A stretch of DNA of 18,608 nt from an uncultured Flammeovirgaceae bacterium (GTDB taxonomy: Bacteria; Bacteroidota; Bacteroidia; Cytophagales; Cyclobacteriaceae): positions 1-18,608 of the forward strand of contig CAMLLI010000004.1 in NCBI GenBank assembly GCA_946480685.1. The letters run 5' to 3'. This document shows, in pieces, positions 1,644 through 18,608 of the stretch (the stretch's first letter is position 1; the number at the start of each line of letters is the position of its first letter). Position numbers and translations under genes: made by a program. The notes under the pieces are model-generated. The model did no database searches. It was not told the DNA's origin and saw only the letters and a program-made list of their open reading frames with translations.

Positions 1644-1648
1644 TTGGA

Positions 1649-1714: not shown

Positions 1715-1716
1715 AT

Positions 1717-1747: not shown

Positions 1748-1768
1748 TCCCGGTTTATTACAGGTACG

Positions 1769-3180: not shown

Positions 3181-3193
3181 CTATATATAGTTA
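3178..3193. repeat. Perfect 16-bp palindrome across the porT stop / SDR start junction
   Basis: TAACTATATATAGTTA is a perfect palindrome running from the porT stop codon to the first base of the SDR start codon. It has no U-tract and is very AT-rich, so it is not a terminator; it may be a small operator or chance. Confidence 0.5.
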
Positions 3194-3948: not shown

Positions 3949-3966
3949 ACTCCGCGGTATATTATA

Positions 3967-4623: not shown

Positions 4624-4628
4624 ACTAT

Positions 4629-4636
4629 GAAAGGTA
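4629..4636 (-). promoter_or_regulatory. Possible -7 promoter element of the hydrolase gene
   Basis: On the minus strand this reads TACCTTTC, one base off TAnnTTTG and 5 bases upstream of the ATG, which would give a leaderless or nearly leaderless mRNA. No TTG is found at the -33 position because the terminator hairpin occupies it, so the call is tentative. Confidence 0.3.
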
Positions 4637-4641
4637 TAAAT

Positions 4642-4671
4642 AAAAAAGCCTTCCCGCAGGGAAGGCTTTTT
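4642..4671 (-). terminator. Intrinsic terminator after the small secreted protein gene
   Basis: A perfect 8-bp GC-rich stem GCCTTCCC / GGGAAGGC (4648-4655 and 4659-4666) with a 3-base loop, flanked by A6 and T5. The minus-strand transcript ends in a U-tract, so it terminates the gene at 4694-5113. The symmetric flanks would allow it to act on the plus strand too, although no plus-strand gene runs into it. Confidence 0.93.
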
Positions 4672-4693
4672 CTATGATGACGATAGTTAAATC

Positions 4694-5113
4694 TTATCGT
4701 TTAAAACCAAGTGCGCTACCTCCGCAATAGGAAGTGGAACCATCAAATGTATACTGGATATAGTATATACCGGTGGTGTTGCAAGGGTATGCTATAGCCG
4801 AGATAAACTGACCGTTTACTTTGCTGGTAGCAACTTTGTTACGGTTTGAATCAAAGAGACTCACCACGATACCATCGGTTGGTTCTTTTGGTGCGCAGAT
4901 GTTGATCATATACTGTGTGCCTTTGGTGAACACATAAGAATACTCAACAAAATCTTTTCCTCCCTTTTCAATTTTATAGCTTTTCAAAAAATTGAAGCCC
5001 GCTGCCAGCTTAGGGATACACTGGTTGCTCATAGCTTCAGAGTTGCACTGTCCGATAACATCTAACGTGCTTAGAACGCATACGGATAGAGCAATGAGTA
5101 TTAACTTTTTCAT
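4694..5113 (-). CDS. Small secreted cysteine-containing protein, function unknown
   Basis: 139 residues with a clear signal peptide (MKKLILIALSVCVLS...), likely cleaved near Val-Ile-Gly/Gln-Cys at residues 21-22; the Cys at 23 is preceded by Gln, so it is not a lipobox. The mature part has five cysteines (23, 32, 73, 111, 130) and alternating beta-type segments such as TGIYYIQYTF and GIVVSLFDS, resembling the beta-sandwich of PPC-like (pre-peptidase C-terminal) domains; this fold suggestion is an inference. It lies 27 bases after the lipoprotein gene and ends at a strong terminator, so it is probably the second gene of that transcript. I do not recognise the family. Confidence 0.75.
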   Translation of the reverse strand: MKKLILIALSVCVLSTLDVIGQCNSEAMSNQCIPKLAAGFNFLKSYKIEKGGKDFVEYSYVFTKGTQYMINICAPKEPTDGIVVSLFDSNRNKVATSKVNGQFISAIAYPCNTTGIYYIQYTFDGSTSYCGGSALGFKR

Positions 5114-5140
5114 AGTGCAAATAAAATTATACTTGGCTTT

Positions 5141-6046
5141 TTATGCTATTATCTTGTTTCTGATAGAAGATGTTGCAGCGCTGATGCTGGCTATGTCTTC
5201 CGGTGTTATTTCAATGGTACTTGTACTGTTGTCCTTAATTACCATTACACCGTCAACAACTTCAAAAGTGGATTCTTTATAGGTATAAGTAATCTTTACT
5301 TTATCGTATATCTTCTTCAACTCTTCCATGTCTTTCAACAATGATGCCATATTCTGGTCAGTGTCTTTATAGAAGGAGAGAAGCAGCATAATGTTTTCAA
5401 GAATGATTTTCTGCTCACCGATTGTTTCTTTCAATTGCTGGTTACCAGGATTAGCAGATGCTACACCACATGTAATGTGAAGTGCTTCCAACCATCCGCC
5501 AGTGAGGAATAACACGCTGAGGTTTGCACGATCTTGTGTCTGAAGATAGCTGTTGATCGTGTTGAAGTTCTGTGTTGTGATCAGCAAAAGTGAATCGAGG
5601 TTTTTGCTGTTGGTAGCCAAACGGCCGATGGTTTCGATATCAAAGAACTGACCGATGCTTAAACCGTTCGCAAGTTCTTTAATGGACGCCATATACTTTA
5701 CACCATCCTGATTCTGTTCATAGATGTTGGTATAGCCGAGGTCTGTACCATAGATACCAAGGTTAAGCGCCTTTTTATAGTTGCTGTTATACTTGAATGT
5801 ATTATCAGGTGAATTCAGGAACGTTGGATTGTATTTCTTACCTGACTCTTTCAGTAATACTGAAATTTCCAACGGGCTGGGTATCTGCTGCAGAATGTCG
5901 CCGATAACTTCTTTGGAAATAGGTGTACCCTCCGAAGTGGCGGTAGTGTCTGGCTTGTCTTCTGTGAAAATGGGCTCATCCGTTTTCTTACCGCATCCAG
6001 CGACTGTAAAGAGTGCCAGGATCAACCCGATAAGTAGTATTCTCAT
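5141..6046 (-). CDS. Putative lipoprotein, function unknown
   Basis: 301 residues beginning with a lipoprotein signal: a hydrophobic stretch, then lipobox Val-Ala-Gly-Cys with Cys18 as the lipidated residue. The Lys-Lys-Thr-Asp-Glu that follows is charged, vaguely like the surface-export signals of some Bacteroidota lipoproteins; this is a guess. The rest is mostly helical without a recognisable enzyme motif; a C-terminal segment (about 240-300) has several short beta-like stretches. The ATG at 6046 lies 21 bases after a near-perfect promoter. It follows the ABC transporter gene on the same strand (68-bp gap), so transport-related work in the periplasm is possible, but the separate promoter argues against obligate coexpression. 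Confidence 0.75.
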   Translation of the reverse strand: MRILLIGLILALFTVAGCGKKTDEPIFTEDKPDTTATSEGTPISKEVIGDILQQIPSPLEISVLLKESGKKYNPTFLNSPDNTFKYNSNYKKALNLGIYGTDLGYTNIYEQNQDGVKYMASIKELANGLSIGQFFDIETIGRLATNSKNLDSLLLITTQNFNTINSYLQTQDRANLSVLFLTGGWLEALHITCGVASANPGNQQLKETIGEQKIILENIMLLLSFYKDTDQNMASLLKDMEELKKIYDKVKITYTYKESTFEVVDGVMVIKDNSTSTIEITPEDIASISAATSSIRNKIIA

Positions 6047-6067
6047 AGATATAAAATTATACAGTTA

Positions 6068-6097
6068 CAAAGTTAAAAATTAAGCATTCAGTGCCAA
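6068..6097 (-). promoter_or_regulatory. Bacteroidota-type promoter of the lipoprotein operon
   Basis: On the minus strand TTG (complement of 6095-6097, within TTTTTGG) is followed after exactly 19 bases by TAACTTTG (complement of 6068-6075), a full match to TAnnTTTG with standard spacing. The start codon follows 21 bases later, giving a short leader. Confidence 0.75.
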
Positions 6098-6114
6098 AAA
6101 GTTACGTTGTTGCT

Positions 6115-9100
6115 TTAATTCTTTTTCTGTGAAGTTCCTTTCATCTTGCCGGGAACCTTGTCAAAAGAGTTAATCAGCTTACGCAACAATTCGAAATATA
6201 AAGTAACATACAATATCACGGTCATCAACCAGATTACCAGTATATCAAATGTATAGGTGCTAATGGATGTACCGAATACTTTCTTTACAGGAGCAAAGAA
6301 AGGTGTCCGGTAATTCAATAGTCCTTCTGATTTAGGGTCAAGGAAAATAGGATTGATCTGCTGGATCAACTCACCGTTGTATTCGATGATGCGCTCCTTT
6401 TCCGTTACGTTCTTTACGAGATCAGCAAGACTTTCATTATAGTATGCATCTTTCAGTTGATTGATGTTCTTGCCGGCCTTTTCGATTGTAGCAAACTTGG
6501 CTTCGCGTTTCGCTACAGCTTTGTTATACGTTCCCTGATAGAATGTTTTATAGGCCGCAAAAAAGTCTTCAAGCTTCTTGTTAAATGCAGGTGTAAAGTC
6601 TTTCAATGTCCAGGGCGCTGCAAGTTCTTTTTCTAATCCTTTCTTGAAAAAGTCATCCTGCAAAGTAGACTGTATAACATATAAATCCTTTTGCATGATG
6701 AGTCTCACCGAGTCATTCTTCTCGTTGATGTTCTCCGAGATGAATCTGCGTTTCTTGTCCAGTTCATCTACCAGGAACGAAGAGTGAAAATCAGATAATG
6801 CTTCCAGTCGGTCATCGTCATAGAATGGCTCTTCATATGAGTTGTTCTTGAAATGATATACTGCCATCGCTTCGTAAGCCCAGCGTGAAGCCATCATATC
6901 GGCCACGACAGGAACTTTACCCTTTGTGCTGATGAGATCATTCAGCTTATCGAAGTTGAAGAGCAAACCACTCAGGATCATTTGAGGGATCAGCAACAAC
7001 GGTATCATTACATATACTGTTACTGCCGAGTTGAACGCAGATGAAATGTTAAGTCCGAGTACACTGGCGAAACATGATGTAGTAAACAATACAAGCCAGA
7101 ACGGAAGAAGCATGCTCCACTCGATCTCCAGGATCAGGTTACCGACCAATACAAATGTAAAAGTCTGTATTGCCGAAAGCGTAAAGAGTATAACAAGCTT
7201 GGACATAAGATAACTGTTCCAACTCAAGTTAAGGAACGACTCTCTGCGAAGTATCTTTCGATCGCGAATGATCTCTTCTGCACTTACCGTAAGTCCCATG
7301 AACAACGCTACAATTATACTCATGAGCATAAAGGCAGGGAAGTTCTCGTTGAAGCGGAATATATATTCTCTGCCGCCCGGTGCACTTTTATACTTGATGA
7401 TAAACGCCAGGATCAATGCGAGCAAGGGTGCCTCCAACAGGTTGATAAGCAAGTACTGCTTGTTGCTGAGTTTGGCAAGTGTATCGCGTGTAGCAAAAAT
7501 TATAGTTTGCTTGATGCGAGTAGGGAGCGTGAGCGAATGCGGAGGTTCTTCTTTGATGTCCTCTACCTTGGTGATTTTAAAACGCTCTTTGTATAGGTCG
7601 TACCATTGTGGAGGTGTGATCTTGCGCTTGTTGGTAGGCTGACCGTATTCGTCAACAACCTTTGCTTCAATGATGTTGAAGATCTGCTCCGGGTTAACAT
7701 TACCACACGTCTCGCACTGTCCGCGGTTGCTGTCAACCTGGTGGGTGGATTTCTTGAAGTATGTTACGGCTTCTACCGGAGGACCGTAGTACGCAGGGTA
7801 TCCGCCAGTGTCCATAATCACCATCTTGTCAAACATCTTGTAGATGTCGGATGATGGCTGGTGAATAACCACGAATATAAGTTTACCCTTGAAGGATAAT
7901 TCTTTCAGTAAGTCAATTACGTTTTCAGAGTCACGTGAAGAAAGTCCGGAGGTAGGTTCATCGAGGAAGAGTATAGCAGGCTCGCGTATCAACTCCAACG
8001 CAATGTTCAGACGTTTACGTTGTCCCCCGCTAATGGTCTTATCCAACGGGTTCCCTACACGGAGATCCTTACGCTGGTCGAGGCCGAGGTTCTCGAGTAC
8101 TTCCATCACGCGTGTATGCAACTGCTCTTCTGTAAAGTGAGCAAAGCAAAGTTTCGCGTTATAGTATAAGTTTTCGTAAACGGTAAGTTCTTCAATCAGC
8201 AGATCGTCCTGAGACACATAACCGATTACACCGTGAATCTTTTCTTTCTGTGTATGTATATCAAAGCCGTTGATCAGTATTTGTCCTTTGGAGGGCTCAA
8301 CTAATCCGGCCATTACATTCAGCAATGTAGTTTTACCGGCACCACTGGCACCCATGATACCAATGAGTTTACCGGGGCCTTCTGCTATCAATACATTGCG
8401 CAGACCGATAGCACCATTCGGGAATTTAAGTTCATCGATAATGGCGTTAAAGGAAAGCTTGGTTGTTTTTAACTCCTCGTTGTAGTTGGCAACCAGGTCG
8501 CTATAGTATAGCGCATCACCGGCTTGGGTTTTAATGGTGCTGCCATGGGAGAACAGATATACCCTGTTCGGCTGCATGGTAAAACCATTGAGTATATTCA
8601 GTTCTTCGCCGAGATACTTTGTGAAATACATCTCAACACTCTGCACGCGCATAAAGATCAGGTTACCCTGTATATGGCCATGCACGTGTTTATATAGTTT
8701 ACCTTCTTCTGCCTTGTGATCGGAGTTGAGAAGAAGTATATCAGCGAAATTCAAAGATGAAGAATCTTCGGAGCGTATAAAGCTCTCGATGAGATCGTAT
8801 TCTTCCTGGATTATATTAAATACAGTGGAGACTGTGTTGATGATCTCCATCCGTTGTGGACTAAAGTTCTTATCGGTACTTACCAGCTCCAGCAGTTTTA
8901 TTAATACAACGACCTTTTGCTTTTGCGTAAGTGTTTTGTTGATCTTCTTACAGATACCAAGCGTCTTAACCGAGTCTTTTACAGACGTGAGTTTCTTCTT
9001 GCCATCATCATCATCGTCTGCTTTACCGTATCCGGAGAATTGATCGTAGAGGTCCAGGTACTCTTTAACGGAGTCCTGATCAAGTTCAGTCTGGAAGAAG

Positions 9101-9198
9101 TTGATCACATACAGACGCTCGCGTTCTGTGACCCCGCCATCCTGTTTCGTTATAATTGCAAAAAGTTGTGTGAGGGCTTTGAGTATTTCTTCACTCAT
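6115..9198 (-). CDS. ABCG-like ABC transporter with N-terminal TerB-like domain (ATPase-permease fusion)
   Basis: 1027 residues. Residues 1-145 form an all-helical TerB-like domain with an Asp-rich loop (61-65); 150-250 is an uncharacterised linker domain. The ATPase (about 250-475) has Walker A GASGAGKTT (283-291), Q-loop at SQ (329-330), signature ISGGQRKR (389-396), Walker B ILFLDEP (409-415) and H-loop His446. A CETCGN motif (C495, C498) precedes the permease. TM helices lie near 583-602, 622-641, 666-690, 696-718, 724-745 and 983-1004, the ABC-2/ABCG arrangement for a half transporter that would dimerise in the inner membrane. An unusually long, charged, helical segment (about 746-982) between TM5 and TM6 should be periplasmic. 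All ATPase motifs are intact, so it should be active; the substrate is unknown. It lies just after the siaC terminator and probably starts its own transcript (TACCTTTA at 9221-9228). Confidence 0.92.
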   Translation of the reverse strand: MSEEILKALTQLFAIITKQDGGVTERERLYVINFFQTELDQDSVKEYLDLYDQFSGYGKADDDDDGKKKLTSVKDSVKTLGICKKINKTLTQKQKVVVLIKLLELVSTDKNFSPQRMEIINTVSTVFNIIQEEYDLIESFIRSEDSSSLNFADILLLNSDHKAEEGKLYKHVHGHIQGNLIFMRVQSVEMYFTKYLGEELNILNGFTMQPNRVYLFSHGSTIKTQAGDALYYSDLVANYNEELKTTKLSFNAIIDELKFPNGAIGLRNVLIAEGPGKLIGIMGASGAGKTTLLNVMAGLVEPSKGQILINGFDIHTQKEKIHGVIGYVSQDDLLIEELTVYENLYYNAKLCFAHFTEEQLHTRVMEVLENLGLDQRKDLRVGNPLDKTISGGQRKRLNIALELIREPAILFLDEPTSGLSSRDSENVIDLLKELSFKGKLIFVVIHQPSSDIYKMFDKMVIMDTGGYPAYYGPPVEAVTYFKKSTHQVDSNRGQCETCGNVNPEQIFNIIEAKVVDEYGQPTNKRKITPPQWYDLYKERFKITKVEDIKEEPPHSLTLPTRIKQTIIFATRDTLAKLSNKQYLLINLLEAPLLALILAFIIKYKSAPGGREYIFRFNENFPAFMLMSIIVALFMGLTVSAEEIIRDRKILRRESFLNLSWNSYLMSKLVILFTLSAIQTFTFVLVGNLILEIEWSMLLPFWLVLFTTSCFASVLGLNISSAFNSAVTVYVMIPLLLIPQMILSGLLFNFDKLNDLISTKGKVPVVADMMASRWAYEAMAVYHFKNNSYEEPFYDDDRLEALSDFHSSFLVDELDKKRRFISENINEKNDSVRLIMQKDLYVIQSTLQDDFFKKGLEKELAAPWTLKDFTPAFNKKLEDFFAAYKTFYQGTYNKAVAKREAKFATIEKAGKNINQLKDAYYNESLADLVKNVTEKERIIEYNGELIQQINPIFLDPKSEGLLNYRTPFFAPVKKVFGTSISTYTFDILVIWLMTVILYVTLYFELLRKLINSFDKVPGKMKGTSQKKN

Positions 9199-9220
9199 AG
9201 GTTAGAGATATAGCAATTTA

Positions 9221-9228
9221 TAAAGGTA
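9221..9228 (-). promoter_or_regulatory. Possible -7 promoter element of the ABC transporter gene
   Basis: The minus strand reads TACCTTTA, one base off TAnnTTTG, 22 bases before the ATG at 9198. The spot where a -33 TTG would lie is inside the terminator stem and does not match, so only half a promoter is visible. Confidence 0.3.
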
Positions 9229-9230
9229 TA

Positions 9231-9298
9231 AAAAAATATCGGTTACCAGTCCCTTCAGAACACCACTTTCCGGGTTCGTGTGTTGACTGGTAACCGAT
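9231..9298 (-). terminator. Strong intrinsic terminator closing the che/sia operon
   Basis: Perfect 14-base arms (9238-9251 and 9285-9298, ATCGGTTACCAGTC and its complement) enclose a 33-base loop. Inside, AACAC (9259-9263) pairs with GTGTT (9280-9284) stacked directly on one arm, leaving a 7-base bulge. On the minus strand the stem is followed by A-TTTTTT, a proper U-tract. It lies 32 bases after the SiaC stop codon and separates the signalling operon from the ABC transporter gene. The stem-plus-large-loop shape is longer than usual and could bind a regulator. Confidence 0.88.
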
Positions 9299-9330
9299 TC
9301 ATCCTTAGGAGATTAACCCCCTCAACGACA

Positions 9331-9693
9331 TTAGTACGTTTTAAACTCGAACGGTATTTCTACCAGCTCTGAAAACTCCTGACCGGCCTCTTCCATATCT
9401 TCATCGTCTTCGTGAAAATACCACAGGATCTTCATGCCTTTAATGTCTTCCAGCGCAGATAACACATCCAGTATCAGTTTGGATGATGCTGTGTTGAAGT
9501 ATTCCAGTTTAAAAACGAATTCAGTAGAAGGGTTTGAGTCGCTGCTATATTTCTCAATCCACTCCAATACCGGGCGATAAAACTCGGCAGAGTCTTCAGG
9601 CAGTGAACGACCGGAGATTTCAAAGATTCCGTTTTTCTTATCGAGGATTATTTTCGGTGTGTCTTCTGTTCCTTCCAGATTCAAAATTTCCAT
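9331..9693 (-). CDS. SiaC-like (DUF1987) regulatory phosphoprotein
   Basis: 120 residues, cytosolic, a single DUF1987 domain. Family marks: FEISGRSLPEDSAEFYRPV (residues 24-42), WIEKY (45-49) and YFNTASSK (65-72). In Pseudomonas aeruginosa SiaC is phosphorylated by SiaB and dephosphorylated by SiaA on a threonine that I recall as Thr68; here a Thr in the conserved NTASS context is also residue 68. Unphosphorylated SiaC there activates the diguanylate cyclase SiaD; no GGDEF protein is in this window, so the target here is unknown. The gene is the last of the run, 33 bases after the kinase gene, followed by a strong terminator. The C-terminal part is acidic (HEDDEDMEEAGQEF). Confidence 0.9.
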   Translation of the reverse strand: MEILNLEGTEDTPKIILDKKNGIFEISGRSLPEDSAEFYRPVLEWIEKYSSDSNPSTEFVFKLEYFNTASSKLILDVLSALEDIKGMKILWYFHEDDEDMEEAGQEFSELVEIPFEFKTY

Positions 9694-9726
9694 GGTATAA
9701 AGCTATTTATATTATTCTAAATCAAT

Positions 9727-10275
9727 TTATTCGTTATCTCTCGGCACATTTACTTTCAGACAAAAGAAGCAATACTCTTCGTTCATCTCAGGAAACTCAA
9801 ACTCTAACCTTTCGCCTGATTTTCTTGCCATGTCCACAAAGCCAAGTCCGGCACCACCTTTATCAGAGATCGTGGTGTTCTTGATGATCTCCTTGTAAAG
9901 ATCTTTCAAACCATCTTTATCAAGGCCGTTGATGCGGTCGAGTGCACCTTGCAGTTTGACAACATTTTCCTTGCGGATCGGGTTACCCGTCATGATCGAA
10001 TAACGGTTGGCCTCCTTGCCGATCAGAAAGATCGCGGCATGGCTTCTTACCTGGCCGTCTACCAATTCATCGCTATGTTTCACAATGTTCTGGAGCGCCT
10101 CAACCATCACATTGAACACCTTGCGCTTTATGCTCGATTCCTCGCCGGAAGAATCAAGGTTTCGCTCGGCCATGGACAGTATAGACTTGGTGCTCTCCTG
10201 GGTAAAATCACCCTGAAACACCAGAATCAGTTTCTGCGACATCATGGTGCGGTGCAGGTCATAAATAAAATTCAT
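9727..10275 (-). CDS. SiaB-family (DUF6272) GHKL-type protein kinase
   Basis: 182 residues with a GHKL ATP-binding fold like anti-sigma-factor kinases. An N-box lies at EALQNIVKHS (Glu59, Asn63, His67), where Asn would bind Mg-ATP, and a G-box at KGGAGLGFVDMA (139-150). The usual Asp-x-Gly motif before the lid is replaced by TGNP (96-99), as is typical of divergent members. By homology to Pseudomonas SiaB it should phosphorylate the SiaC-like protein encoded next. It is preceded by a 107-bp gap holding a hairpin and AT-rich sequence, the largest gap in the operon, so its level may be set separately from the phosphatase. Confidence 0.87.
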   Translation of the reverse strand: MNFIYDLHRTMMSQKLILVFQGDFTQESTKSILSMAERNLDSSGEESSIKRKVFNVMVEALQNIVKHSDELVDGQVRSHAAIFLIGKEANRYSIMTGNPIRKENVVKLQGALDRINGLDKDGLKDLYKEIIKNTTISDKGGAGLGFVDMARKSGERLEFEFPEMNEEYCFFCLKVNVPRDNE

Positions 10276-10342
10276 GCGTCAGAAGATTAGATTAAAATTG
10301 ATTGAGATTCACTAAGTTAAAATTTATTTTATTTTAAAATCC

Positions 10343-10366
10343 ACCTTCGCTTTCAAAGCGTGAGGT
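10343..10366 (-). promoter_or_regulatory. Hairpin between phosphatase and kinase genes (possible attenuator or RNA-processing site)
   Basis: On the minus strand ACCT-CA-CGCTT-TGA-AAGCG-A-AGGT folds into a 9-bp stem with a small internal loop. It begins 17 bases after the phosphatase stop codon and is followed by GGATTTTAAAATAAAATAAATTTT, a broken U-tract, so partial termination is plausible. A TAACTTAG (complement of 10312-10319), one base off the -7 consensus, follows, but without a -33 TTG. The stretch 10276-10382 holds nothing else I can identify. Confidence 0.45.
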
Positions 10367-10382
10367 TGGGTCTTTTACTGGT

Positions 10383-13300
10383 TTAAAACTTTATCCCGAT
10401 CAGCAACACGTCATCTGTCTGCTTATGGTCGCCTCGCCAGCCTTCCCATTCCTGATCAAATATAGTTACAGCTTCGTTCATGGACGATGTATGAACGCGT
10501 TCAATTATATCACGCACGCGCTTCGGTCCAAACTTACGCCCTTCCGGTCCGCCAAACTGATCCGGGAAACCATCCGAACTGAAGTAGATGGAGTCACCTT
10601 CATTTAACTTAACGTAGGTATTGGTAAAGTTAGTCTGGTTCTTAAATATACCACCACCAATCGGGAATTTATTACCTTTCACTTCTTCCATGGCACCGCT
10701 CTTCATAATATATAGCGGGCGGTGTGCTCCGGCATACTCTACTTCGCGTGTAGCCATGTTGATCTTACACAACGCGATGTCCATACCATCTTTCGTTGTT
10801 GAGTCTTCATCCTGGCGCAGGGTTGTTGTTACACCTTCATCCAGTAAGTCGAGTATCTTGCCAGGCTCGGTGATCTTACGGCTTCGAACGATATCGTTCA
10901 GCAGGAAGTATCCGATCAACGACAACAAAGCTCCCGGTACACCGTGACCTGTACAGTCAACGGCTGCGATAAAGATCTCTTCTTTGATCTGTACGAACCA
11001 AGGGAAGTCTCCGGAAACGACATCGCGTGGTTTGTAAAGTATAAATGAATCAGGCAATGCACGGCTTATCACGCGGCTGTTCGGAAGAATAGCAGTCTGG
11101 ATACGCTTCGCATAGTTTATACTTTCGGTGATCTTCTTGTTCTTGTTCTGGATCTCGAGCTCAATCATCTTCCGCTCGGTAATATCGTGCGATACAACGA
11201 GTACAGATTCCAGTTTATTAGACTCATCAAATTCAGGTATAGCATTTACCTGCATGATGCGTTTACCCATCTCAGAAGGGAAATCCATTTCAGTATCCGC
11301 TTTCTGGTTGGTAGCATTTACCTGTTCAACAACTTTCAGCCAGCCTTCCAGTACGGACTGATCCAGCTCGGCATCTTTTACTTTCTTGTTGAGGAAGTAG
11401 GATGGATGTTTGCCGGTATATTCTTCGATCACCGGGTTGATATAGGAGATCGATTCGCCTTCGAGACGTGTGATAAGGTCGAGCGAGTTTTCGGAGAGAG
11501 CCTGCATCTTACTGCGCATGCGTTGCTCCAGCTCTGCTCTTCTGCGTTCGGTTATATCGCGTGAGTTAAGGATATAGCCGTGGATCGCAGCATTCGACAT
11601 GAAGTTTGTTCCGGTTGATTCGATCCAGATAAAGCTTCCGTCTTTGGTGCGGTACTCATATTGCGTTGTAACTTTTTCATCTGGATTCTCGGACAGTTTA
11701 CGGAACAGATCTTTGAAGTTGTCACGGTAATCCGGGTGTACCTTGTCGATGTCGCTCTTGCCGATCATCTCTTTCTGTCCATAACCAAGAATGGTTTCAA
11801 CAGAAGGAGAGATATAGCGGATGCTCTCGTCTTCTTCGTAGATGGTAATAACCTCGGAAGCATTTTCGAGCAGAAGCTGCATACGCTTTTGTGTACGATT
11901 CACTTCTTCGATTTGCTCTTCGAGTTTCTGGTTTGAGCGTTGCAGTTCTTCCTGTGTCGCCTGCATTTCTTCTGCATTCTGGCGAAGTACTTCCTGCTTT
12001 TCTTTCAGCTCATTACTCATCTCCTGCGATTCTGCCAGGAGTATACGTGTACGTTCGTTTACTTTGATGTTAAAGATGGTACGCGCCAGGATAAGTGAAA
12101 GCTCCTGTACGAATTTTACCTGCGAAGGATCGAACTTACGGAAGCCGGCAAACTCCAGCACACCATATACTTCTTCGTTGGTAATAAGTGGTACAATCAA
12201 TATACAGGAAGGGCGTTGATCACCTAATATACCCGAAGTGATGGTTACATAATCATCCGGTATCTCGGTACGCATAACCGTATCTTTTTCAGCGGCAGCT
12301 TGTCCAACAAGTCCTTCTGCAAATTTGAATTTTGCCTTTAGGTACTTTTTACGATTGTAAGCGTAGCTTGCGCGCATCTCGATTACTGCCGGTGAATTTT
12401 CATCGTTCACCACGTAGAATGCACCCTGTATAGCACCGATCTTTTCAAGTATAAACTTGATCACATCTTCGCCAAGTGCATCGATGGAATCGTGCATACG
12501 AAGAATCTCACTGATCTCGGCAACACCGCGCACAATCCAGTTACGCTCTTTGTCTCTTCTTTCGTTCTCGATCAGGTTGTTACGCATGTCGATCAGCGAG
12601 AGACCGAGTATATCATTTTCACTGGCCGGTTTAAAGGCTGTGTCATATTTACCTTCACCAATGCGCTTGGCAAATTCTGCATTGCCGCGCAGGGTGTGTA
12701 CAAGTTCGTTTACTTTGGTGCCCATCTGTCCAAACTCGTCACTGCTGGTCTGCTCGGAATTCTCCGGCAACACACCTTGCGCCACCAGGCTTATGGTATT
12801 ACGCATAGCATATAATGGGCGCGTTAGTGAGCGGGCGAAAAGCATCGCCAGGAAAATGGCGAGAGCAACGATACAAAGACCGGCATAAGTAAATGTGCTG
12901 ATCAGTCCTTTTGCATCGCCATGCGCTTCAGCAAGATCCATCTTCGCGATAAGCGCCATGTTCTTCCCTACTTTGCGCGCGGTTTGCAGAATGGTGTTTC
13001 CGTTCAGGTCTTTACCGGTAGTAGGTATAGTTTTACCTTCTACTGCATCGGCAAAACCTTTTACAAATTGTTCGTTCGGATTATAGAGTATGATGGCTGA
13101 TGAAGTATCGCCACGCAACGGACTCACTATTGCTATTTTCTTTGATGTAGGATCTACGCGGCCCAGCAGAAGTTCGCCGGTTTGCCCGAGCCCGTGATAG
13201 TTCTTCAGTGTTTTATAGGCAGGAGTGAGGTTGAGCTTTACAATGATGAGTTGCTGGCTGCCACTGTTGTTGGTAACAGCACCCGCTGCGTATGAGAAGT

Positions 13301-13856
13301 AATTCTTTTTAGTCTTATCGCGAAATACAGATGTAAAGTGTATATCATTTTTAGCGCGTTCGAAAGTTATACCATCCGGATCGATAAAATTACCTTTTAC
13401 ATTCGGGTCGGTAGACGCTACAACGGCACCGGTAGGCGAAGTGATAATGATATCGTCTACTTCAAATATATACTTCTGCTCTTCGAGGAAACCGACCAGA
13501 CCACCACCATCGGTTGGTTCGCTTGCTGCTGCTGAATCAGGTGCAGCGGTTGCATCGGGAGCTCCCATCATGGCCATCAGGTCCATACCACCGCCACCGG
13601 CAGCTGCGGCACCGTCACCTTTCTTGATGGTTTCGGAGTTCTTGAGAACCTCTACAGCTATAGCTGCCTTCTCGAAGTAAGTGTTGAGGTAAGCAGCGCG
13701 ATTATCGGCCAGCGCATTGAGTGTAGCTGAATACTTTTCCTGGTTTGTTTTCAGGTGATAATCGTAACTAAAAAAACTGATCGCGGCTACAGCCACGAGC
13801 GACACCGCGAGTATTAAAATCGTAATCTTGGTGCTGACGTTTATGCTTTTCATCAT
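10383..13856 (-). CDS. Membrane sensor SpoIIE/PP2C-type phosphatase (SiaA-like): Cache-HAMP-GAF-PAS-PAS-SpoIIE
   Basis: 1157 residues counted from the ATG at 13856, which lies 19 bases after the previous stop codon; an in-frame TTG at 13904 would add 16 residues and overlap that gene, and is less likely. Order: TM1 (11-29), periplasmic Cache-like sensor (about 35-320) with an Ala/Gly/Met-rich low-complexity insert (82-120), TM2 (about 321-341), HAMP (342-394), GAF (455-600), coiled coil (604-660) with RQNAEEMQATQEE (625-637), PAS (660-770), PAS (784-896), SpoIIE phosphatase (934-1157). Metal-binding motifs are present: SGDFPWF, DCTGHGVPGA, SSDGFPDQ and KQTDDVLL, with Asp950, 967, 1095 and 1148/1149; Pro replaces the usual Tyr/Thr after SGDF and SDGF. 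Like SiaA it should dephosphorylate the SiaC-like protein encoded two genes later, with activity set by the sensor domains. Confidence 0.9.
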   Translation of the reverse strand: MMKSINVSTKITILILAVSLVAVAAISFFSYDYHLKTNQEKYSATLNALADNRAAYLNTYFEKAAIAVEVLKNSETIKKGDGAAAAGGGGMDLMAMMGAPDATAAPDSAAASEPTDGGGLVGFLEEQKYIFEVDDIIITSPTGAVVASTDPNVKGNFIDPDGITFERAKNDIHFTSVFRDKTKKNYFSYAAGAVTNNSGSQQLIIVKLNLTPAYKTLKNYHGLGQTGELLLGRVDPTSKKIAIVSPLRGDTSSAIILYNPNEQFVKGFADAVEGKTIPTTGKDLNGNTILQTARKVGKNMALIAKMDLAEAHGDAKGLISTFTYAGLCIVALAIFLAMLFARSLTRPLYAMRNTISLVAQGVLPENSEQTSSDEFGQMGTKVNELVHTLRGNAEFAKRIGEGKYDTAFKPASENDILGLSLIDMRNNLIENERRDKERNWIVRGVAEISEILRMHDSIDALGEDVIKFILEKIGAIQGAFYVVNDENSPAVIEMRASYAYNRKKYLKAKFKFAEGLVGQAAAEKDTVMRTEIPDDYVTITSGILGDQRPSCILIVPLITNEEVYGVLEFAGFRKFDPSQVKFVQELSLILARTIFNIKVNERTRILLAESQEMSNELKEKQEVLRQNAEEMQATQEELQRSNQKLEEQIEEVNRTQKRMQLLLENASEVITIYEEDESIRYISPSVETILGYGQKEMIGKSDIDKVHPDYRDNFKDLFRKLSENPDEKVTTQYEYRTKDGSFIWIESTGTNFMSNAAIHGYILNSRDITERRRAELEQRMRSKMQALSENSLDLITRLEGESISYINPVIEEYTGKHPSYFLNKKVKDAELDQSVLEGWLKVVEQVNATNQKADTEMDFPSEMGKRIMQVNAIPEFDESNKLESVLVVSHDITERKMIELEIQNKNKKITESINYAKRIQTAILPNSRVISRALPDSFILYKPRDVVSGDFPWFVQIKEEIFIAAVDCTGHGVPGALLSLIGYFLLNDIVRSRKITEPGKILDLLDEGVTTTLRQDEDSTTKDGMDIALCKINMATREVEYAGAHRPLYIMKSGAMEEVKGNKFPIGGGIFKNQTNFTNTYVKLNEGDSIYFSSDGFPDQFGGPEGRKFGPKRVRDIIERVHTSSMNEAVTIFDQEWEGWRGDHKQTDDVLLIGIKF
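11946..11984 (-). other. Shared coiled-coil motif RQNAEEMQATQEE in the phosphatase
   Basis: Thirteen codons encode RQNAEEMQATQEE between the GAF and first PAS domain. The same motif (RQNMEEMQATQEE) is in the HAMP-GAF sensor at 16648-16686, with different synonymous codons (cgc/cga, gaa/gag, gcg/gct), so selection is on the protein. It contains E-E-x-x-A-T, the pattern of chemoreceptor methylation sites. Confidence 0.8.
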
Positions 13857-13875
13857 ACGCGTTTGACGCTTCCGT

Positions 13876-14640
13876 TTAGGCTCTTTTTGAAATTTTATCG
13901 GCAATTAACTCTGCAGATTCCTCTACAAACTTGCGCTGGTCTTCTGTAAGGTTTGTGAACGATGCGATCTCGATTATTCCCAGTACACGTTCTTTCTTGA
14001 TCGGAACAATCAACAAAAATTTAGGAGAGGCGCTGCCTAATCCTGAAATGATCTTGATATATCCCTGCGGTACATCGTCAACATATAGCGTGCGTCCGCT
14101 GGAAGCAGATTGTCCTATAAGTCCTTCACCAAATTCGTAGCTGATCACTGTGCTTTCACCGATTGTAAGAGCATATCCGTTTTTCAATTCTACTTTGCGC
14201 TTGCCATCTTCTTCTTTCACTATATATATAGCGCCCTGGCCTGCATCCAGTTGTTTACACACTGCCTGAAGACCTGCCTGAAGTATATCTTTTACTGCGT
14301 TGGCCTGGTTAACACTGCTCTTTACTGTATCGAGACTGATGGTGGTTTTGCCGGCCTGTTCAGCGGCTTCACGTTCGGCCGTAGCAGCATCTACAATGCG
14401 ATCGCGCATTACAACCACTTCCTTTCGATAGCGAAGTGCTGAAAGAAGTGTTACTGCTCCCAACACAAATGTGAGAACGAGTATGATATAAATATTTACT
14501 AGCTCCGCCTGGTAGCCATCGGTCAAACGAAGGTTTGCCGGCAGGGAGTAAATAAGATATAGTGAAATGCCTATGCCGGCAGTAAAGACTGCTGCCAGTA
14601 TAAGGTTCAGGTAATAGCGATCGTTAAATAGACCTGTCAT
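13876..14640 (-). CDS. Two-TM membrane protein with coiled coil and GAF domain
   Basis: 254 residues: TM1 (10-33), short periplasmic loop, TM2 (49-68), charged helix (72-98), then a GAF domain (about 112-250) with GEGLIGQ (171-177), a P-x-x-Y-I-x-I-x-S-G-L-G segment and LLIVPIKKERVLGIIEIASF. There is no catalytic output domain, so it is either a sensory accessory subunit or a partner that forms mixed oligomers with the GAF domains of the two large sensors, which are close paralogues. Its ATG overlaps the CheB stop codon in ATGA, indicating translational coupling; the phosphatase gene follows 19 bases after its stop. Confidence 0.85.
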   Translation of the reverse strand: MTGLFNDRYYLNLILAAVFTAGIGISLYLIYSLPANLRLTDGYQAELVNIYIILVLTFVLGAVTLLSALRYRKEVVVMRDRIVDAATAEREAAEQAGKTTISLDTVKSSVNQANAVKDILQAGLQAVCKQLDAGQGAIYIVKEEDGKRKVELKNGYALTIGESTVISYEFGEGLIGQSASSGRTLYVDDVPQGYIKIISGLGSASPKFLLIVPIKKERVLGIIEIASFTNLTEDQRKFVEESAELIADKISKRA

Positions 14641-15230
14641 CGATATTGTTTATCTAGTTCCTTTAAAAACTCTACAATTTGATCAACCTTCATTACGTGA
14701 TCAATTTTTGTTGCCGCCAGTGCGGCACGTGGCATCGTATCAATCATACATTCCGAAGGTTCCTGTACGATGGTTAATCCGCCACGGTCGTGTATATGTT
14801 TCATTCCCAACGCGCCATCTTTATTGGCACCGGAAAGAAGAATTCCGATCAGCTTCTCTTTATATACAAAGGCACTGGTGCCTAAGGTTATATCAATGGC
14901 TGGTCTGGAGTTGTTTATCATCTCTTCTGTAGAGAGCGCAAAGTAAAGCCCGAGTTCTACAGACATATGATAATTGGCCGGAGCCAGGTATACACTTCCT
15001 TTCTTTATATTCTCTTTATCGTGGGGTTCGGTAACCTGCACAACGCTTTTAATAGAGAGAGCTTCCACAAAACCATTACGCACGTGCTTCAGTCTGTGCA
15101 GGCACATGATAATTGGTAACGGAAAACCTTTAGGCAACTGTGACAGGATTTTTACCACACCCTGGAAGCTGCCTGCTGACCCACCGATAACAACGGCTTT
15201 ATAGCTGTTATTTAGGTTGTACTTACTCAT
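14637..15230 (-). CDS. cheB: Stand-alone CheB-type protein-glutamate methylesterase
   Basis: 197 residues consisting only of the CheB catalytic domain; the N-terminal receiver domain of classical CheB is absent, so phosphorylation by CheA cannot control it. Catalytic residues: Ser18 in GGSAGS, His45 in CLHR and Asp138 in SGANKDGALG, with the conserved APANYHM (83-89) and SRPAID (108-113). The enzyme removes methyl groups from glutamates or deamidates glutamines of chemoreceptors. No receptor, CheA or CheW is in view, so the substrates are probably the neighbouring HAMP-GAF proteins (inference). It starts 20 bases after cheR and overlaps the GAF gene by 4 bases. Confidence 0.92.
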   Translation of the reverse strand: MSKYNLNNSYKAVVIGGSAGSFQGVVKILSQLPKGFPLPIIMCLHRLKHVRNGFVEALSIKSVVQVTEPHDKENIKKGSVYLAPANYHMSVELGLYFALSTEEMINNSRPAIDITLGTSAFVYKEKLIGILLSGANKDGALGMKHIHDRGGLTIVQEPSECMIDTMPRAALAATKIDHVMKVDQIVEFLKELDKQYR

Positions 15231-15250
15231 TCGTAAAAGGCAAACTTCAC

Positions 15251-16072
15251 TTAATCTTTTATTTTCTTATAAATCTTCTCTTCATTATTAACCACGATGA
15301 AGCGATTGGCATAGTCGCACCAGATCAAAGACTCTTTTGATCCAATGGCGAGATAACCATACTTGAATAAGCTCTCGTGGAATTTTTTCAATACCTCATT
15401 CTGCAAGGCCTGGTTAAAATATATCATCACGTTCCGGCAGAGAACAAGATCAAACTTGTTGAAGATATCGCCCGTTACCAGATCGTGTCTGCGAAACGAA
15501 ACATTCATGAAAAGATCTTTATTGAAAACAGCATTGCCGTTTTCTTCGCGATAGTAATCTTTAAAGCTCTTGGTACCCTGGAAGCGGATATAGTTCTTTT
15601 CGTTCAGCTCCATATTCTTGATCGGATAGGTAGCGAGCTTCGCCTTATCAAGAATATTTACATCGAGGTCGGTAGCAATGATGGTAACATCGTGAAGTAT
15701 ACCCATCTCTTTGAGCATAATGCACATAGAGACAACTTCTTCACCAGATGAACAACCGGCATGCCATATCTTGAACTGTTTATGGTTAAGCATGATGGCA
15801 GGGATGATCTCCTCGCGCATTATGCGCCAGAAACTCGGGTCACGAAACATCTCTGTTACGTTTACCGTGAGTTCATCCAGAAACTCATTAATAAAAGAAG
15901 GCTGTTCGGTAAGCTTTTTCAAAAGGGCATCAACGGAAAGTTTCTTTAATTCCATGATGCGTAGTACACGCCTTTTGAAAGAAGACATCGCGTAATTCCG
16001 GAAGTCATAATTATACTTCTGGTAGATTAGCTCCGAAATTCTTTTAAGGTCTGCAATATCAATATCGAGCAT
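15251..16072 (-). CDS. cheR: CheR-type protein-glutamate O-methyltransferase
   Basis: 273 residues, the normal size for CheR, with the helical N-terminal domain (about 1-75) and the SAM-binding domain. Marks: VNVTEMFRDPSFW (70-82), SAM motif I WHAGCSSGEE (103-112), ATDLD (133-137) and LCRNVMIYF (211-219). It uses SAM to methylate glutamate side chains of receptors. It looks complete and active. As the first gene of the signalling operon, it has a plausible promoter 26 bases upstream and is followed by cheB after 20 bases. The C-terminus lacks a fused TPR or PAS module. Confidence 0.95.
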   Translation of the reverse strand: MLDIDIADLKRISELIYQKYNYDFRNYAMSSFKRRVLRIMELKKLSVDALLKKLTEQPSFINEFLDELTVNVTEMFRDPSFWRIMREEIIPAIMLNHKQFKIWHAGCSSGEEVVSMCIMLKEMGILHDVTIIATDLDVNILDKAKLATYPIKNMELNEKNYIRFQGTKSFKDYYREENGNAVFNKDLFMNVSFRRHDLVTGDIFNKFDLVLCRNVMIYFNQALQNEVLKKFHESLFKYGYLAIGSKESLIWCDYANRFIVVNNEEKIYKKIKD

Positions 16073-16097
16073 GAAAAGGTCTTTATAAAAAGGAACC

Positions 16098-16127
16098 CAA
16101 AGTTAATTTCTATGGTAAACTACCGAA
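16098..16127 (-). promoter_or_regulatory. Probable promoter of the cheR-siaC operon
   Basis: The minus strand reads TAACTTTG (complement of 16098-16105), a full match to TAnnTTTG and identical to the -7 of the lipoprotein operon. Nineteen bases upstream is TTC (complement of 16125-16127) instead of TTG. The cheR ATG follows 25 bases after the -7 element. Confidence 0.55.
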
Positions 16128-16131
16128 TGGA

Positions 16132-16161
16132 TTTGAACATTAAATCTTACATGTGTTCAAA
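16132..16161. repeat. Inverted repeat upstream of the cheR promoter (possible operator)
   Basis: TTTGAACA (16132-16139) and TGTTCAAA (16154-16161) are perfect inverted 8-mers, 14 bases apart, directly upstream of the -33 region. Centre-to-centre distance is 22 bases, about two helical turns, as expected for a dimeric regulator, but it could be chance in AT-rich DNA. Confidence 0.4.
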
Positions 16162-16365
16162 AGCCTTCGTAGCACACAATTTTTCTAAGTAAATGAAATT
16201 ACTGAAATCGTCCTAATTAGCGAGAAAAAGGGACCAAAAACTTTACCCACAACCCGGTTGAAGTGTCTCATTAAAAATAGCACAACACATACCCGGACAA
16301 TCACGAATAGCTTGTATTTCCTGATTTATGGTTTCAGGAACTTCCCCTCTTTGGTATTACATGTT

Positions 16366-18213
16366 TTACCTTGTTTTACGTGCAAGCTCTTGCTGCGTAA
16401 TTTCCAGTGCCTCTAAATTTATTTTCAGAGTTTTGGCAATTTCTTCCGCCAGTTGCCAGTCATCGGACCGCACAGGTTTTTGCGCGAGCTCTTTTTCTAA
16501 CATGGCGATCTTATCCAGAAGAGCACGTTCTTTGCGCTCCAACGTGAGTGTTGCTTCTTCCAGTTTACCCGTTGTGCCAGATATATTTCCTAACTGCTGT
16601 TCCAACTCCTGGATGCGCTCTATATAACCATGCTCTTTGCGCGCCACCTCTTCTTGTGTAGCTTGCATCTCTTCCATGTTCTGTCGCATCTCTTCTTCCT
16701 GCGCACGCATCTGTTCGGTTTGAGACTGAAACTGCTCAATGAGGAATTTATTTTTCTGCGCAGCACGTACTGAAGCTATAGATGATGCTATGGTTTCGCC
16801 CAGCTTTTCAACAAATGTTATTTCATGCGGAGCATATTCGTTGAATGATGCAAGCTCTACGATACCATATACCTGCGTATCAACTTTAAGCGGTACAATG
16901 AGTATAGATCGCGGGTTGGCGTCTCCCAATCCGGACGTTATACGGATATATTCGTCAGGGAAATTAGTATAGTAATTGGTTTCTGCTTCCAGGTATGTTT
17001 GCCCCAATAAGCCTTCGCCAAGTTTTATTTTACGTGTCTCAAATTTCTTGATGTCGAACGCAAACAACGATACCAGTTCCAGGTGTTTGTTGTTCTCATC
17101 TTCATCGTTCAATATATATAGCGCGCCCTGGTTAGACTTGGTATACTGCACCAGTGATGAAATGATCTTGTCACCAAGAGTAACAATGTCGTCACTGGAC
17201 GAACGCATGATGTCAACAAATTTCGCGAGGCCTTCATTAGCCCACTGTCGCTTGCGTTCTTCTTCATTCAATGATTTCAGTTTGCCCTGCATATCAATGA
17301 GTGAATCGGCCAGCTTATTCTTGCCGTGATTATAGCCGCTGTCGAGTGTGGCCTTGTAATCTATATCAAGATTACCCTGTCCAATGGCAGTAACAAAGTC
17401 GGTAGCATCTTTCAGATTCTCCAGTGTCTCATTGATCTGGTTGGAAAGTTTGCCGATCTCGTTGTTAGGAGAGTCAGACATTTGCTGATGGTTGGAGGTA
17501 CTGATGCGCAGTGTATTGAGCGGACGAAGTACATGACGTTCAAATGCCAGGAAGATCAATGTGAGGAGCGCTACATCAAACACGATGATGGCAACAACCC
17601 AACGATGCACCGATGACTTCTCTTTCATTACCTCCGTCTCAACATCGTTGAAAAGATTATCATACCATTGAGACAGCGTAAGTGATAAGCTTTCTTCTTT
17701 CAATACGGCCGCACGCCATGCTTTGTCGGATATAACTGCCGGTGTTGTCACCACTGTGTTGCTATACGTACTGTCACCTTCCGCAGCATCAGCAGGTGTT
17801 GTGTTTTCACGGATGCTCAGTACTTCTCTTACTGAACTTTTATACTCTTCCCAGTATTCGTTCAGGTTGTCGAATGAGATCCGGGGCAGGCGCTTGAGGG
17901 GTTTCAGTATAACATCGGTGCGATCGATCCGTCCGCCTTTACTCAGCACACCCAGCAGGTGATCCTGGTTCACAATCTTCGCTTCAATCTCTGCGGAGAG
18001 ATCTTCATTCCGGGTAAAGTGGCGTTGCACCATCAGTGAGATCTGCTGACTTGATATTTCTGCGCTGCGTATAAAATCAAGTTTCTGCTCTGTCTCATCC
18101 AGCACATTAATGCGATATTGAATGATATAATACTCCGCGAAGTATATCAGGAACATGACAACGAGCAGGTAAATACCGATCAGCCGCAGAGATGTATTGC
18201 GCAGAAATTTCAT
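16366..18213 (-). CDS. Membrane HAMP-GAF sensor with long C-terminal coiled coil
   Basis: 615 residues from the ATG at 18213; an in-frame TTG at 18222 would add only three residues. Order: TM1 (about 9-29), periplasmic helical sensor region (30-204) with an Ala/Thr/Ser-rich patch (about 138-160), TM2 (about 205-225), HAMP and HAMP-like segment (226-310), GAF (about 335-485) with GEGLLGQ (399-405), then a coiled coil to the end holding RQNMEEMQATQEE (510-522). It has no kinase, phosphatase, cyclase or classical chemoreceptor tip. The GAF and coiled-coil parts are paralogous to the neighbouring SpoIIE phosphatase, so it may pair with it or act as a methyl-accepting receptor for the adjacent CheR/CheB. 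It is on the same strand, 293 bp upstream of cheR. Confidence 0.87.
   Translation of the reverse strand: MKFLRNTSLRLIGIYLLVVMFLIYFAEYYIIQYRINVLDETEQKLDFIRSAEISSQQISLMVQRHFTRNEDLSAEIEAKIVNQDHLLGVLSKGGRIDRTDVILKPLKRLPRISFDNLNEYWEEYKSSVREVLSIRENTTPADAAEGDSTYSNTVVTTPAVISDKAWRAAVLKEESLSLTLSQWYDNLFNDVETEVMKEKSSVHRWVVAIIVFDVALLTLIFLAFERHVLRPLNTLRISTSNHQQMSDSPNNEIGKLSNQINETLENLKDATDFVTAIGQGNLDIDYKATLDSGYNHGKNKLADSLIDMQGKLKSLNEEERKRQWANEGLAKFVDIMRSSSDDIVTLGDKIISSLVQYTKSNQGALYILNDEDENNKHLELVSLFAFDIKKFETRKIKLGEGLLGQTYLEAETNYYTNFPDEYIRITSGLGDANPRSILIVPLKVDTQVYGIVELASFNEYAPHEITFVEKLGETIASSIASVRAAQKNKFLIEQFQSQTEQMRAQEEEMRQNMEEMQATQEEVARKEHGYIERIQELEQQLGNISGTTGKLEEATLTLERKERALLDKIAMLEKELAQKPVRSDDWQLAEEIAKTLKINLEALEITQQELARKTR
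16648..16686 (-). other. Shared coiled-coil motif RQNMEEMQATQEE in the HAMP-GAF sensor
   Basis: The 13-residue motif matches the one in the SpoIIE phosphatase at 12 of 13 positions and sits at the same place, just after the GAF domain. It holds E-E-M-Q-A-T, fitting the E-E-x-x-A-S/T pattern of methylated glutamates in chemoreceptors. A further EEE triplet stands two residues before it. Confidence 0.8.
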
Positions 18214-18276
18214 AATCACCAAATAAGGTAAAATACCCTAAACCCCAAAACCGCTGTATGGAAAAAGCTGAAAGTG

Positions 18277-18305
18277 AAAAATCAGGGGAGATTTATTGCC
18301 CCGCC
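18277..18305 (-). terminator. Possible weak terminator after cdd
   Basis: On the minus strand GGGG (complement of 18299-18302) pairs with CCCC (complement of 18285-18288) across a 10-base loop and is followed by TGATTTTT. The stem is only 4 bp, so termination would be weak. The 18214-18332 gap holds nothing else I could identify, and no consensus promoter for the sensor gene was seen. Confidence 0.35.
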
Positions 18306-18332
18306 CCACTATAAATCAAACACGTTGAGACA

Positions 18333-18608
18333 CTACAGGCTGTCGTTCGTGAAGCCAAAGGGTAACAACGAGAGCGCAGAGGGAGCCTTAATCCATTGAT
18401 GCTGCTGGCTTTGCATGATGATTTCGATCGGGGCCTTCTGCCGGTTCTCGAACTCCAGCAACACCTGTCGGCACTCACCACAACATGTAGCCGGTGTCAG
18501 TTCGCTCTCACCACGTTTCTGTGCTGTTACTGCAACCTTGAGAATCTTAACATGCGGATAAAGTGCATAAGCCGAAAACAACGCTACACGCTCAGCACAG
18601 AGTCCGGA
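18333..18608 (-). CDS. cdd: Cytidine deaminase, C-terminal part (5' end beyond window)
   Basis: The frame is open to the window edge and reads S-G-L-C-A-E-R-V-A-L-F-S-A from base 18608 inward, so the gene starts outside. The zinc site is visible: Cys-Ala-Glu (ligand Cys and proton-shuttling Glu) and, about 40 residues later, CCGECRQVLLEF, giving the two other Cys ligands. Zn-dependent cytidine deaminase converts cytidine and deoxycytidine to uridine forms in pyrimidine salvage. The residue before the C-G-x-C ligand pair is Cys rather than the usual Pro. The visible part has 91 codons plus stop, ending TNDSL. It does not look functionally tied to the signalling genes. Confidence 0.92.
   Translation of the reverse strand, partial: SGLCAERVALFSAYALYPHVKILKVAVTAQKRGESELTPATCCGECRQVLLEFENRQKAPIEIIMQSQQHQWIKAPSALSLLPFGFTNDSL

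Follow-up and report, generated by a model that had tools for sequence, protein, structure and literature searches.

Reversible glutamate methylation is the memory of pathways in which methyl-accepting chemotaxis proteins (MCPs) act through CheA. What, then, do the enzymes of this methylation act on when they are encoded with a Ser/Thr phospho-switch and with neither CheA nor CheW? The question is raised by an 18,608-nucleotide stretch (the window) of an uncultured Flammeovirgaceae bacterium (GenBank assembly GCA_946480685.1, contig CAMLLI010000004.1, positions 1-18608), in which genes for a CheR methyltransferase and a CheB methylesterase stand in one six-gene operon with a partner switch resembling SiaA, SiaB and SiaC of Pseudomonas. 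This operon proved to be conserved in the Cytophagales, and its CheB was accompanied by a candidate methylation-site motif in sensors with GAF domains. With moderate confidence we propose, from sequence comparison, that CheR and CheB tune these GAF sensors and the SiaA-like phosphatase in a chemosensory pathway without CheA.

Gene content of the operon

All six open reading frames (ORFs) lie on the minus strand in the order cheR-cheB-GAF-SpoIIE-siaB-siaC, as judged from the ORF list and from Pfam and NCBIfam matches. cheR (15251-16072) encodes a 273-amino-acid (aa) protein-glutamate methyltransferase (PF01739, E 1.6e-41; solved CheR 5ftw, E 4.6e-33) and is followed after 20 bp by cheB (14637-15230), whose 197-aa product, referred to below as class 1, is a stand-alone methylesterase without a receiver domain (PF01339, CheB_methylest, E 3.3e-48; solved CheB 3sft, E 2.2e-30). 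A 4-bp overlap joins cheB to the gene (13876-14640) of a 254-aa membrane-anchored protein with two transmembrane segments by hydropathy and a GAF domain (GAF_2, E 2e-15). The SiaA-like sensor phosphatase comes next (10383-13856 from an ATG start), with transmembrane, HAMP, GAF, coil, PAS, PAS and SpoIIE/PP2C regions (PF07228, E 6.5e-19); its mechanically called ORF begins at a TTG at 13904, and the gap to the GAF gene is 19 bp if the ATG at 13856 is used. The C-terminus of this protein (residues 917-1173 of the TTG-start frame) aligned to the solved SiaA-PP2C domain 6k4e (E 1.1e-37). After 107 bp follows siaB (9727-10275) for a 182-aa SiaB-like protein kinase (DUF6272, E 5.7e-42; NCBIfam subfamily SiaB_fam_kinase, NF038262, 176.7 bits, cut-off 85), and after a further 33 bp siaC (9331-9693) for a 120-aa SiaC-like phosphoprotein (PF09345, E 3.5e-39, 133.6 bits, cut-off 24.5; solved SiaC 6kko/6k4f, E 3.8e-16). 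Against the NCBIfam equivalog models all three switch proteins scored below the cut-off: the phosphatase reached 204.3 bits, over residues 915-1173 of 1173 only (SiaA, NF038263, cut-off 700), the kinase 84.6 bits (SiaB, NF038264, cut-off 225) and the phosphoprotein 86.5 bits (SiaC, NF038265, cut-off 150). The initial annotation of this DNA had given the same gene order, the same gaps and a stand-alone methylesterase, and the ORFs and family matches agreed with it in each respect. The existence of the operon is beyond doubt and the family assignments are firm.

The GEE and CRNxxIYF motifs of CheR were present in 37 of 37 operon-class proteins, the GGSAGS, HRL and SGANxDG motifs of CheB in 38 of 38, the NT[AS]S motif of SiaC in 31 of 31 and the Glu/Asn N-box pattern of SiaB in 32 of 32; these motifs we take to hold the catalytic residues. 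S18, H45 and D138 of CheB were invariant across 19 aligned class-1 rows. To judge by these motifs, CheR and CheB of the operon are enzymes whose catalytic residues are kept. Thr68 of the siaC product aligned to the Thr of NT[AS]S in Pseudomonas SiaC, and both SiaC Thr68 and SiaB Glu61 are named in PMC7647112.

Conservation across Cytophagales

In a sample of 59 related genomes, the nearest of which shared 25% of 31-letter words with the window, some CheB was present in 47. Among the matches listed, 57 stretches around stand-alone CheBs were read, and in these one CheB class adjoined cheR and sia genes. This class 1, defined after the window had been seen, was recognized with a profile (A1) built from 19 operon-linked CheBs and occurred as a single copy in each of 38 of the 59 relatives (318-378 bits), with other CheBs at 207 bits or less. 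The six genes stood in order on one strand in 31 of the 38 (G057 included). Contig ends cut three class-1 loci (L063, L073, L078), and the departing loci held cheR-cheB only (L037 in G039), cheR-cheB-GAF (L052 in G055, L054 in G038) or a split block (L041 in G043). The lone pair of L037 may act on another substrate or be a relic.

A scan of named genomes gave 421 confirmed stretches, and among the best 80, which were examined, 69 had all six genes in order, two of them with kilobase gaps (L314, L317); six of the remaining 11 we regard as truncated at the end of a contig (L267, L268, L285, L290, L304, L310). The titles of the 80 loci gave Cytophagales taxa or wider Bacteroidetes labels, with Ohtaekwangia koreensis (CheB 99% identical), Chryseolinea, Fulvivirga, Marivirga, Flexithrix, Microscilla and Thermoflexibacter among the named taxa, and three metagenome bins were labelled otherwise (Bacteroides sp., Chitinophagaceae, Thalassobius). 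CheR/CheB and the Sia-type switch are one conserved unit across an order, the Cytophagales. The joining of the two systems that the initial annotation had read from this DNA is shared within this order, and the neighbourhood, far from being peculiar to a single strain as it had allowed, spans many genera.

Among the papers listed by a literature search whose coverage did not extend to bioRxiv or to the majority of subscription journals, no description of CheR/CheB joined to SiaABC, DUF1987 or SpoIIE switches was found, which agrees so far with the earlier impression of an arrangement not known as described. CheR, CheB and SiaC are all present in PMC9239204, on Campylobacterota, passages of which treat the chemosensory classes and SiaABCD separately.

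Candidate receptors and methylation site

Which proteins might these enzymes modify? With the MCP methylation consensus taken from PMC1079850, a candidate methylation site, EEMQAT, was located twice in the window on the minus strand: at 11955-11972, in the coil between the GAF and PAS domains of the SpoIIE protein (QNAEEMQATQEEL), and at 16657-16674 (residues 517-522), in the coil of a sensor encoded upstream of cheR (QNMEEMQATQEEV). This sensor gene (16366-18222, minus strand) lies 293 bp upstream of cheR and encodes 618 aa with two transmembrane segments by hydropathy and a GAF domain (GAF_2, E 1.3e-13); no Pfam family besides GAF matched, and no output domain was found. In 24 of the 80 named loci a sensor of this kind stands before cheR.

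EEM[QEAR]AT occurred in 56 of 71 operon SpoIIE proteins, and the same search found none in 15. The third site of Tsr (SMEQLTATV) and the typical sensor sequence (NMEE[LM]xATQ) share, by eye, hydrophobic residues before and after the Glx pair at equal spacing. Within EE[LM]xAT the letter before Ala varied (Q, E, A, M, S, T, L, N and K among others); this letter is an x of the MCP consensus, and E, E, A and T were mostly kept. Conservation extended past the site, with EEE[ML]RQN before it and QEE after it.

A further 42 motif ORFs in 40 other stretches, together with the two window proteins, made 44 motif proteins. GAF_2 was found in all 44, HAMP in 19 and PAS domains in many. Among the 25 of 32 families listed for the 44 proteins, the sole enzymatic output was the window SpoIIE, and no kinase, cyclase or other output domain exceeded its cut-off in the ten longest of the 42 ORFs scanned singly; a marginal Omp85_2 match in L130 was taken as chance. 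The MCPsignal hairpin (PF00015) had no match in the upstream sensor, among the 25 of 32 families listed for the 44 motif proteins or in the ten longest scanned singly. In the same literature no description of output-less GAF sensors of this kind in Bacteroidetes was found. By the MCP-type methylation consensus that they carry, the SpoIIE protein and the GAF sensors are the likely receptors.

Coupling of the motif to class-1 CheB

The motif pattern was written after the window and loci had been read. Its exact form, a DNA pattern for EE[hydrophobic]QATQEE, was searched for, with the reversed pattern as control, in the relatives and in a phylum sample of 296 genomes (12 of the window's order; G001 and G024 in both samples). 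The exact motif was found in 34 of the 59 relatives, all of them class-1 genomes, and so in 34 of 38 genomes with class-1 CheB against none of 21 without (Fisher p 2.4e-12, kinship ignored). Some CheB-profile match was present in 172 of the 296 genomes of the phylum sample; the motif occurred there in four genomes, and these four were also the ones with class-1 CheB (358-369 bits; next best 199.8). The reversed pattern had no match in either sample. The motif followed class-1 CheB, and it followed neither MCPs and CheW nor CheBs of other classes.

A profile (A3) made of motif-bearing rows, with the motif columns left out, was used to search for the module that precedes the coil in 12 author-chosen genomes among the 38 of class 1 and in 27 others (21 relatives, six from the phylum sample). 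At E <= 1e-20 the module was detected in 11 of the 12 class-1 genomes with 5-24 copies each (none in G039) and in six of the 27 others, where only G053 exceeded 200 bits. All modules found in G001, G017, G048, G051 and G053 had their loci read, those found elsewhere in part; eight modules that were too short or partial were dropped over seven tail sets. A strict EExxA[ST] within 34 residues after the module was present in 14 of 22 tails in G001 (0.35 expected on shuffling), 10 of 16 in G017, four of six in G048 and 15 of 18 at other class-1 loci. In genomes without class 1 the strict motif was found in none of the five tails of G053 and none of six in five others.

G053 resembles a natural deletion. 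Its genome had no CheB match, and its only CheR match was a 63-position fragment (25.6 bits) within a 1,285-aa frame. Contig C27 carries a sensor gene, 4 bp behind it the GAF gene and next the SpoIIE gene, with no cheR-cheB between; both the CheR fragment and the siaB-siaC-like genes lie outside C27. The SpoIIE protein has LKMAAS at the site, and one tail matched a looser motif (EQEDST) that is out of register with the site, where its letters are QELESA. Absence of the site is the pattern expected if it persists only while CheR and CheB exist, here in one lineage that appears to have lost cheR-cheB rather than to have lacked them from the start.

Evidence against and alternative readings

Several observations weigh against the proposed pathway or against a strict form of it. 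With kinship considered, a first rpoB tree (one misread row included) gave eight supported contrasts, 5.5 concordant and none discordant (median p 0.06), and a second tree with a richer model and the misread row out gave three contrasts, 1.8 concordant and none discordant (median p 0.5). G054 was left out (suspected wrong frame), no rpoB match was obtained in G002, G028 or G029, and G006 was absent; motif and class-1 CheB labels each changed at least 12 times on the better-modelled tree. The direction of the contrasts never conflicts, and their significance after kinship control falls short. As the rows of A3 all bear the motif, its high-scoring loci lean to motif-bearing proteins. Eight of the 22 tails in G001 lacked the strict motif, three of them in long proteins (1,153-2,153 aa). 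G051 keeps cheR-cheB with the strict motif in two of 13 tails, both of low-scoring modules, and with a SpoIIE protein without the motif; G039 has class-1 cheR-cheB with no module in the genome and no SpoIIE within the stretch read. These two genomes speak against strict coupling of cheR-cheB and the sites. Lastly, the window's nearest genomes (G001-G007) have MCPs and CheW elsewhere in the genome, and further CheBs in open frames of about 345-395 aa, with room for a receiver.

This coexistence would suit a reading in which the operon CheR and CheB are ordinary adaptation enzymes of an MCP-CheA pathway and stand beside the Sia switch by chance, a reading that we consider very improbable. No CheA or CheW was found among the eight window proteins scanned. 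MCPsignal exceeded its cut-off in 24 of the 59 relatives, and CheW likewise in 24. In 17 of the 38 class-1 genomes there was no MCP over the cut-off and no CheW domain, a domain that CheA also carries (one of them, G045, had three MCPsignal matches below the cut-off). The operon enzymes therefore do without their usual partners, and the classical system is not their general client and was rejected as such; 14 of these 17 carry the exact sensor motif. Class-1 CheB is missing from G014, G021 and G049, which do possess MCPs, CheW and CheBs of other kinds, and the linkage to sia genes across many genera also argues against a chance neighbourhood. A CheB without a receiver belongs to the classical class F3 as well (PMC9239204), which this reading can count in its favour, so the receiver-less CheB alone does not set the system apart. 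The statement in the initial annotation that CheA, CheW and classical receptors are lacking holds for CheA and CheW within the unit; it has to be amended in that the SpoIIE protein and the upstream sensor carry the MCP-type consensus and that G001-G007 possess MCPs and CheW. A classical system elsewhere in the genome, which it had named as a possible user of these enzymes, fails as a general account and retains some force for the window's own kin.

A second alternative, which we rate as unlikely, gives the coil another role: EExxA[ST] would be a docking or dimerization element (a signalling helix) that pairs GAF sensors with the SpoIIE protein, and CheR and CheB would modify the GAF protein, SiaB or SiaC. 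A coiled-coil interface should show conservation wider than the site, as seen here, cheR-cheB persist in G051 and G039 beside few sites or none, and CheR has been reported to act on a protein other than an MCP, methylating PhoP of Salmonella at R112 (PMC8546571). However, the variable letter is one that the MCP consensus leaves free, and E, E, A and T mostly do not change; the motif goes with class-1 CheB rather than with MCPs, CheW or the remaining CheBs, and none of the five tails of G053 contains it. Less probable still is a local unit, in which CheR and CheB would have no substrates besides the SpoIIE protein and the GAF protein of the operon, and the other motif sensors would belong to other pathways. 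Those two proteins, and sometimes one sensor, are indeed the only ones encoded with CheR/CheB, but the motif recurs in many unlinked sensors of the same genomes, and its exact form was found only in class-1 genomes.

Proposed mechanism

In the CheA-less pathway that we favour, the sensors examined have no recognizable output domain, the exception being the SiaA-like SpoIIE protein of the operon with its phosphatase. CheR and the receiver-less CheB would add and remove methyl groups on the sensor coils, setting gain or memory. The summed sensor state would set phosphatase activity against the SiaB-like kinase and thereby the phosphorylation of SiaC at Thr68, and SiaC in its unphosphorylated form would act on a client. 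The analogy with SiaD makes the TerB-ABC transporter of the neighbouring gene a candidate for this client, though a doubtful one; the terminator between siaC and the transporter gene speaks for separate transcription, not against binding. Methylation, its direction of effect, the contact of sensors with the phosphatase and the client are what we infer from an observed operon, its conservation, its kept residues and the coupling of the motif. Methylation-based adaptation of a Ser/Thr phospho-switch, as the initial annotation had suggested, has gained a conserved unit and a likely receptor, with methylation itself a prediction.

We suggest, more tentatively, that Cytophagales may possess a second methyl-accepting array, in which GAF receptors that lack an output, with as many as some two dozen modules in a genome, would be adapted by a CheR/CheB pair of their own and would signal through one SiaA-type phosphatase, SiaB/SiaC replacing CheA/CheY. 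Here CheR and CheB share an operon with a Ser/Thr partner switch and follow a family of sensors in which the MCP signalling domain is lacking. If the proposal is true, receptor methylation as sensory memory is a transferable principle independent of histidine kinases, methylation adaptation is modular, many output-less sensors of Cytophagales gain a function and their SiaC/DUF1987 proteins gain an upstream pathway.

Operon borders and flanking genes

Downstream of siaC an intrinsic terminator was predicted at 9229-9298 on the minus strand (14-pair stem and T-run, -41.4 kcal/mol, z -4.8, none of 200 shuffles as good), as strong as had been annotated. A promoter before cheR, also annotated, was dropped: promoter consensus matches in 6000-18608 were at chance (24 found, 24.3 expected), and the single window match of a Bacteroidota-type motif was located elsewhere than cheR. 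The 107-bp gap between the phosphatase and siaB genes (10276-10382, minus strand) has a similar size in many named loci, and its siaB-side half is conserved among near kin. A structured RNA there was rejected, as shuffled sequences folded as well as that of the window (z -0.1). By eye, hairpin-like stretches whose sequence changes seem to recur in this gap after the SpoIIE stop.

The gene after siaC (6115-9198, minus strand) encodes a TerB-ABC-ABC2-type transporter (TerB 24.3 bits, just below the cut-off of 24.4), and such a gene follows siaC in 66 of the 80 named loci. A cyclase is accordingly missing from this place, as the initial annotation had noted; its six-gene extent for the operon was correct and stopped short of the upstream sensor and the transporter gene that flank named loci. 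Two small putative exported proteins are encoded beside the transporter (5141-6046 and 4694-5113), one with a lipoprotein-like start.

Other CheB classes and related genes

A second stand-alone CheB class (107-141 bits against the window CheB) was seen in L031, L043, L070, L077, L082, L083 and L086, adjoining cheR and proteins of about 870-1,350 aa; module matches in G047, G052 and G305 lie within a few kb of second-class CheBs, and the strict EExxA[ST] is missing from them. CheBs of a third class, about 200 aa long (43-68 bits), were seen in L035, L049, L059, L065, L071, L079, L081, L084, L085 and L087, with no cheR match in the stretch read. In many relatives CheB domains lie inside open frames of about 900-2,150 aa, several with a CheR match in the same frame. 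G046 has a full-length CheR (144 bits, G046:C1:2219510-2220076) and no CheB match in the genome. SiaC-family matches numbered 14 in G039, 19 in G048 and 13 in G051, which suggests many parallel SiaC switches in Cytophagales.

Comparison with known systems

Partner switching of the SpoIIE/RsbU type uses a PP2C phosphatase, a HATPase-like kinase and a STAS-like target. The window likewise has, by families, a PP2C phosphatase, a kinase and a phospho-target together; its kinase and target, however, are of the SiaB and SiaC families, and methylation enzymes are added.

To the chemosensory pathway of MCP, CheW, CheA, CheR and CheB the window is similar in its CheR and CheB with kept motifs, its membrane sensors and their coil with the MCP consensus. 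It differs in that the unit has no CheA or CheW, the sensors are GAF proteins with no MCPsignal match seen, and the output is a Ser/Thr phosphatase; the window CheB also lacks a receiver, as does that of class F3 (PMC9239204). In the action of CheR on PhoP of Salmonella the site named is an Arg of a response regulator (PMC8546571), whereas the candidate site of the window is a coil consensus in a sensor.

In the switch itself the likeness is to SiaABCD of Pseudomonas aeruginosa, where SiaB phosphorylates SiaC, SiaA acts on phosphorylated SiaC, and SiaD, the cyclase that SiaC activates, has been proposed to respond when SiaC shifts to its unphosphorylated form (PMC7647112, PMC8457831); DUF1987 proteins have been suggested to commonly modulate adjacent proteins (PMC8457831). 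Both systems have a membrane phosphatase, a SiaB-family kinase and SiaC in adjacent genes, and the PP2C domain and SiaC of the window align to solved SiaA and SiaC with Thr68 kept. Unlike SiaABCD, the window system has a phosphatase protein with GAF domain, PAS domains and a site like that of MCPs, CheR and CheB in its operon and, beside siaC in place of a cyclase, a TerB-ABC transporter.

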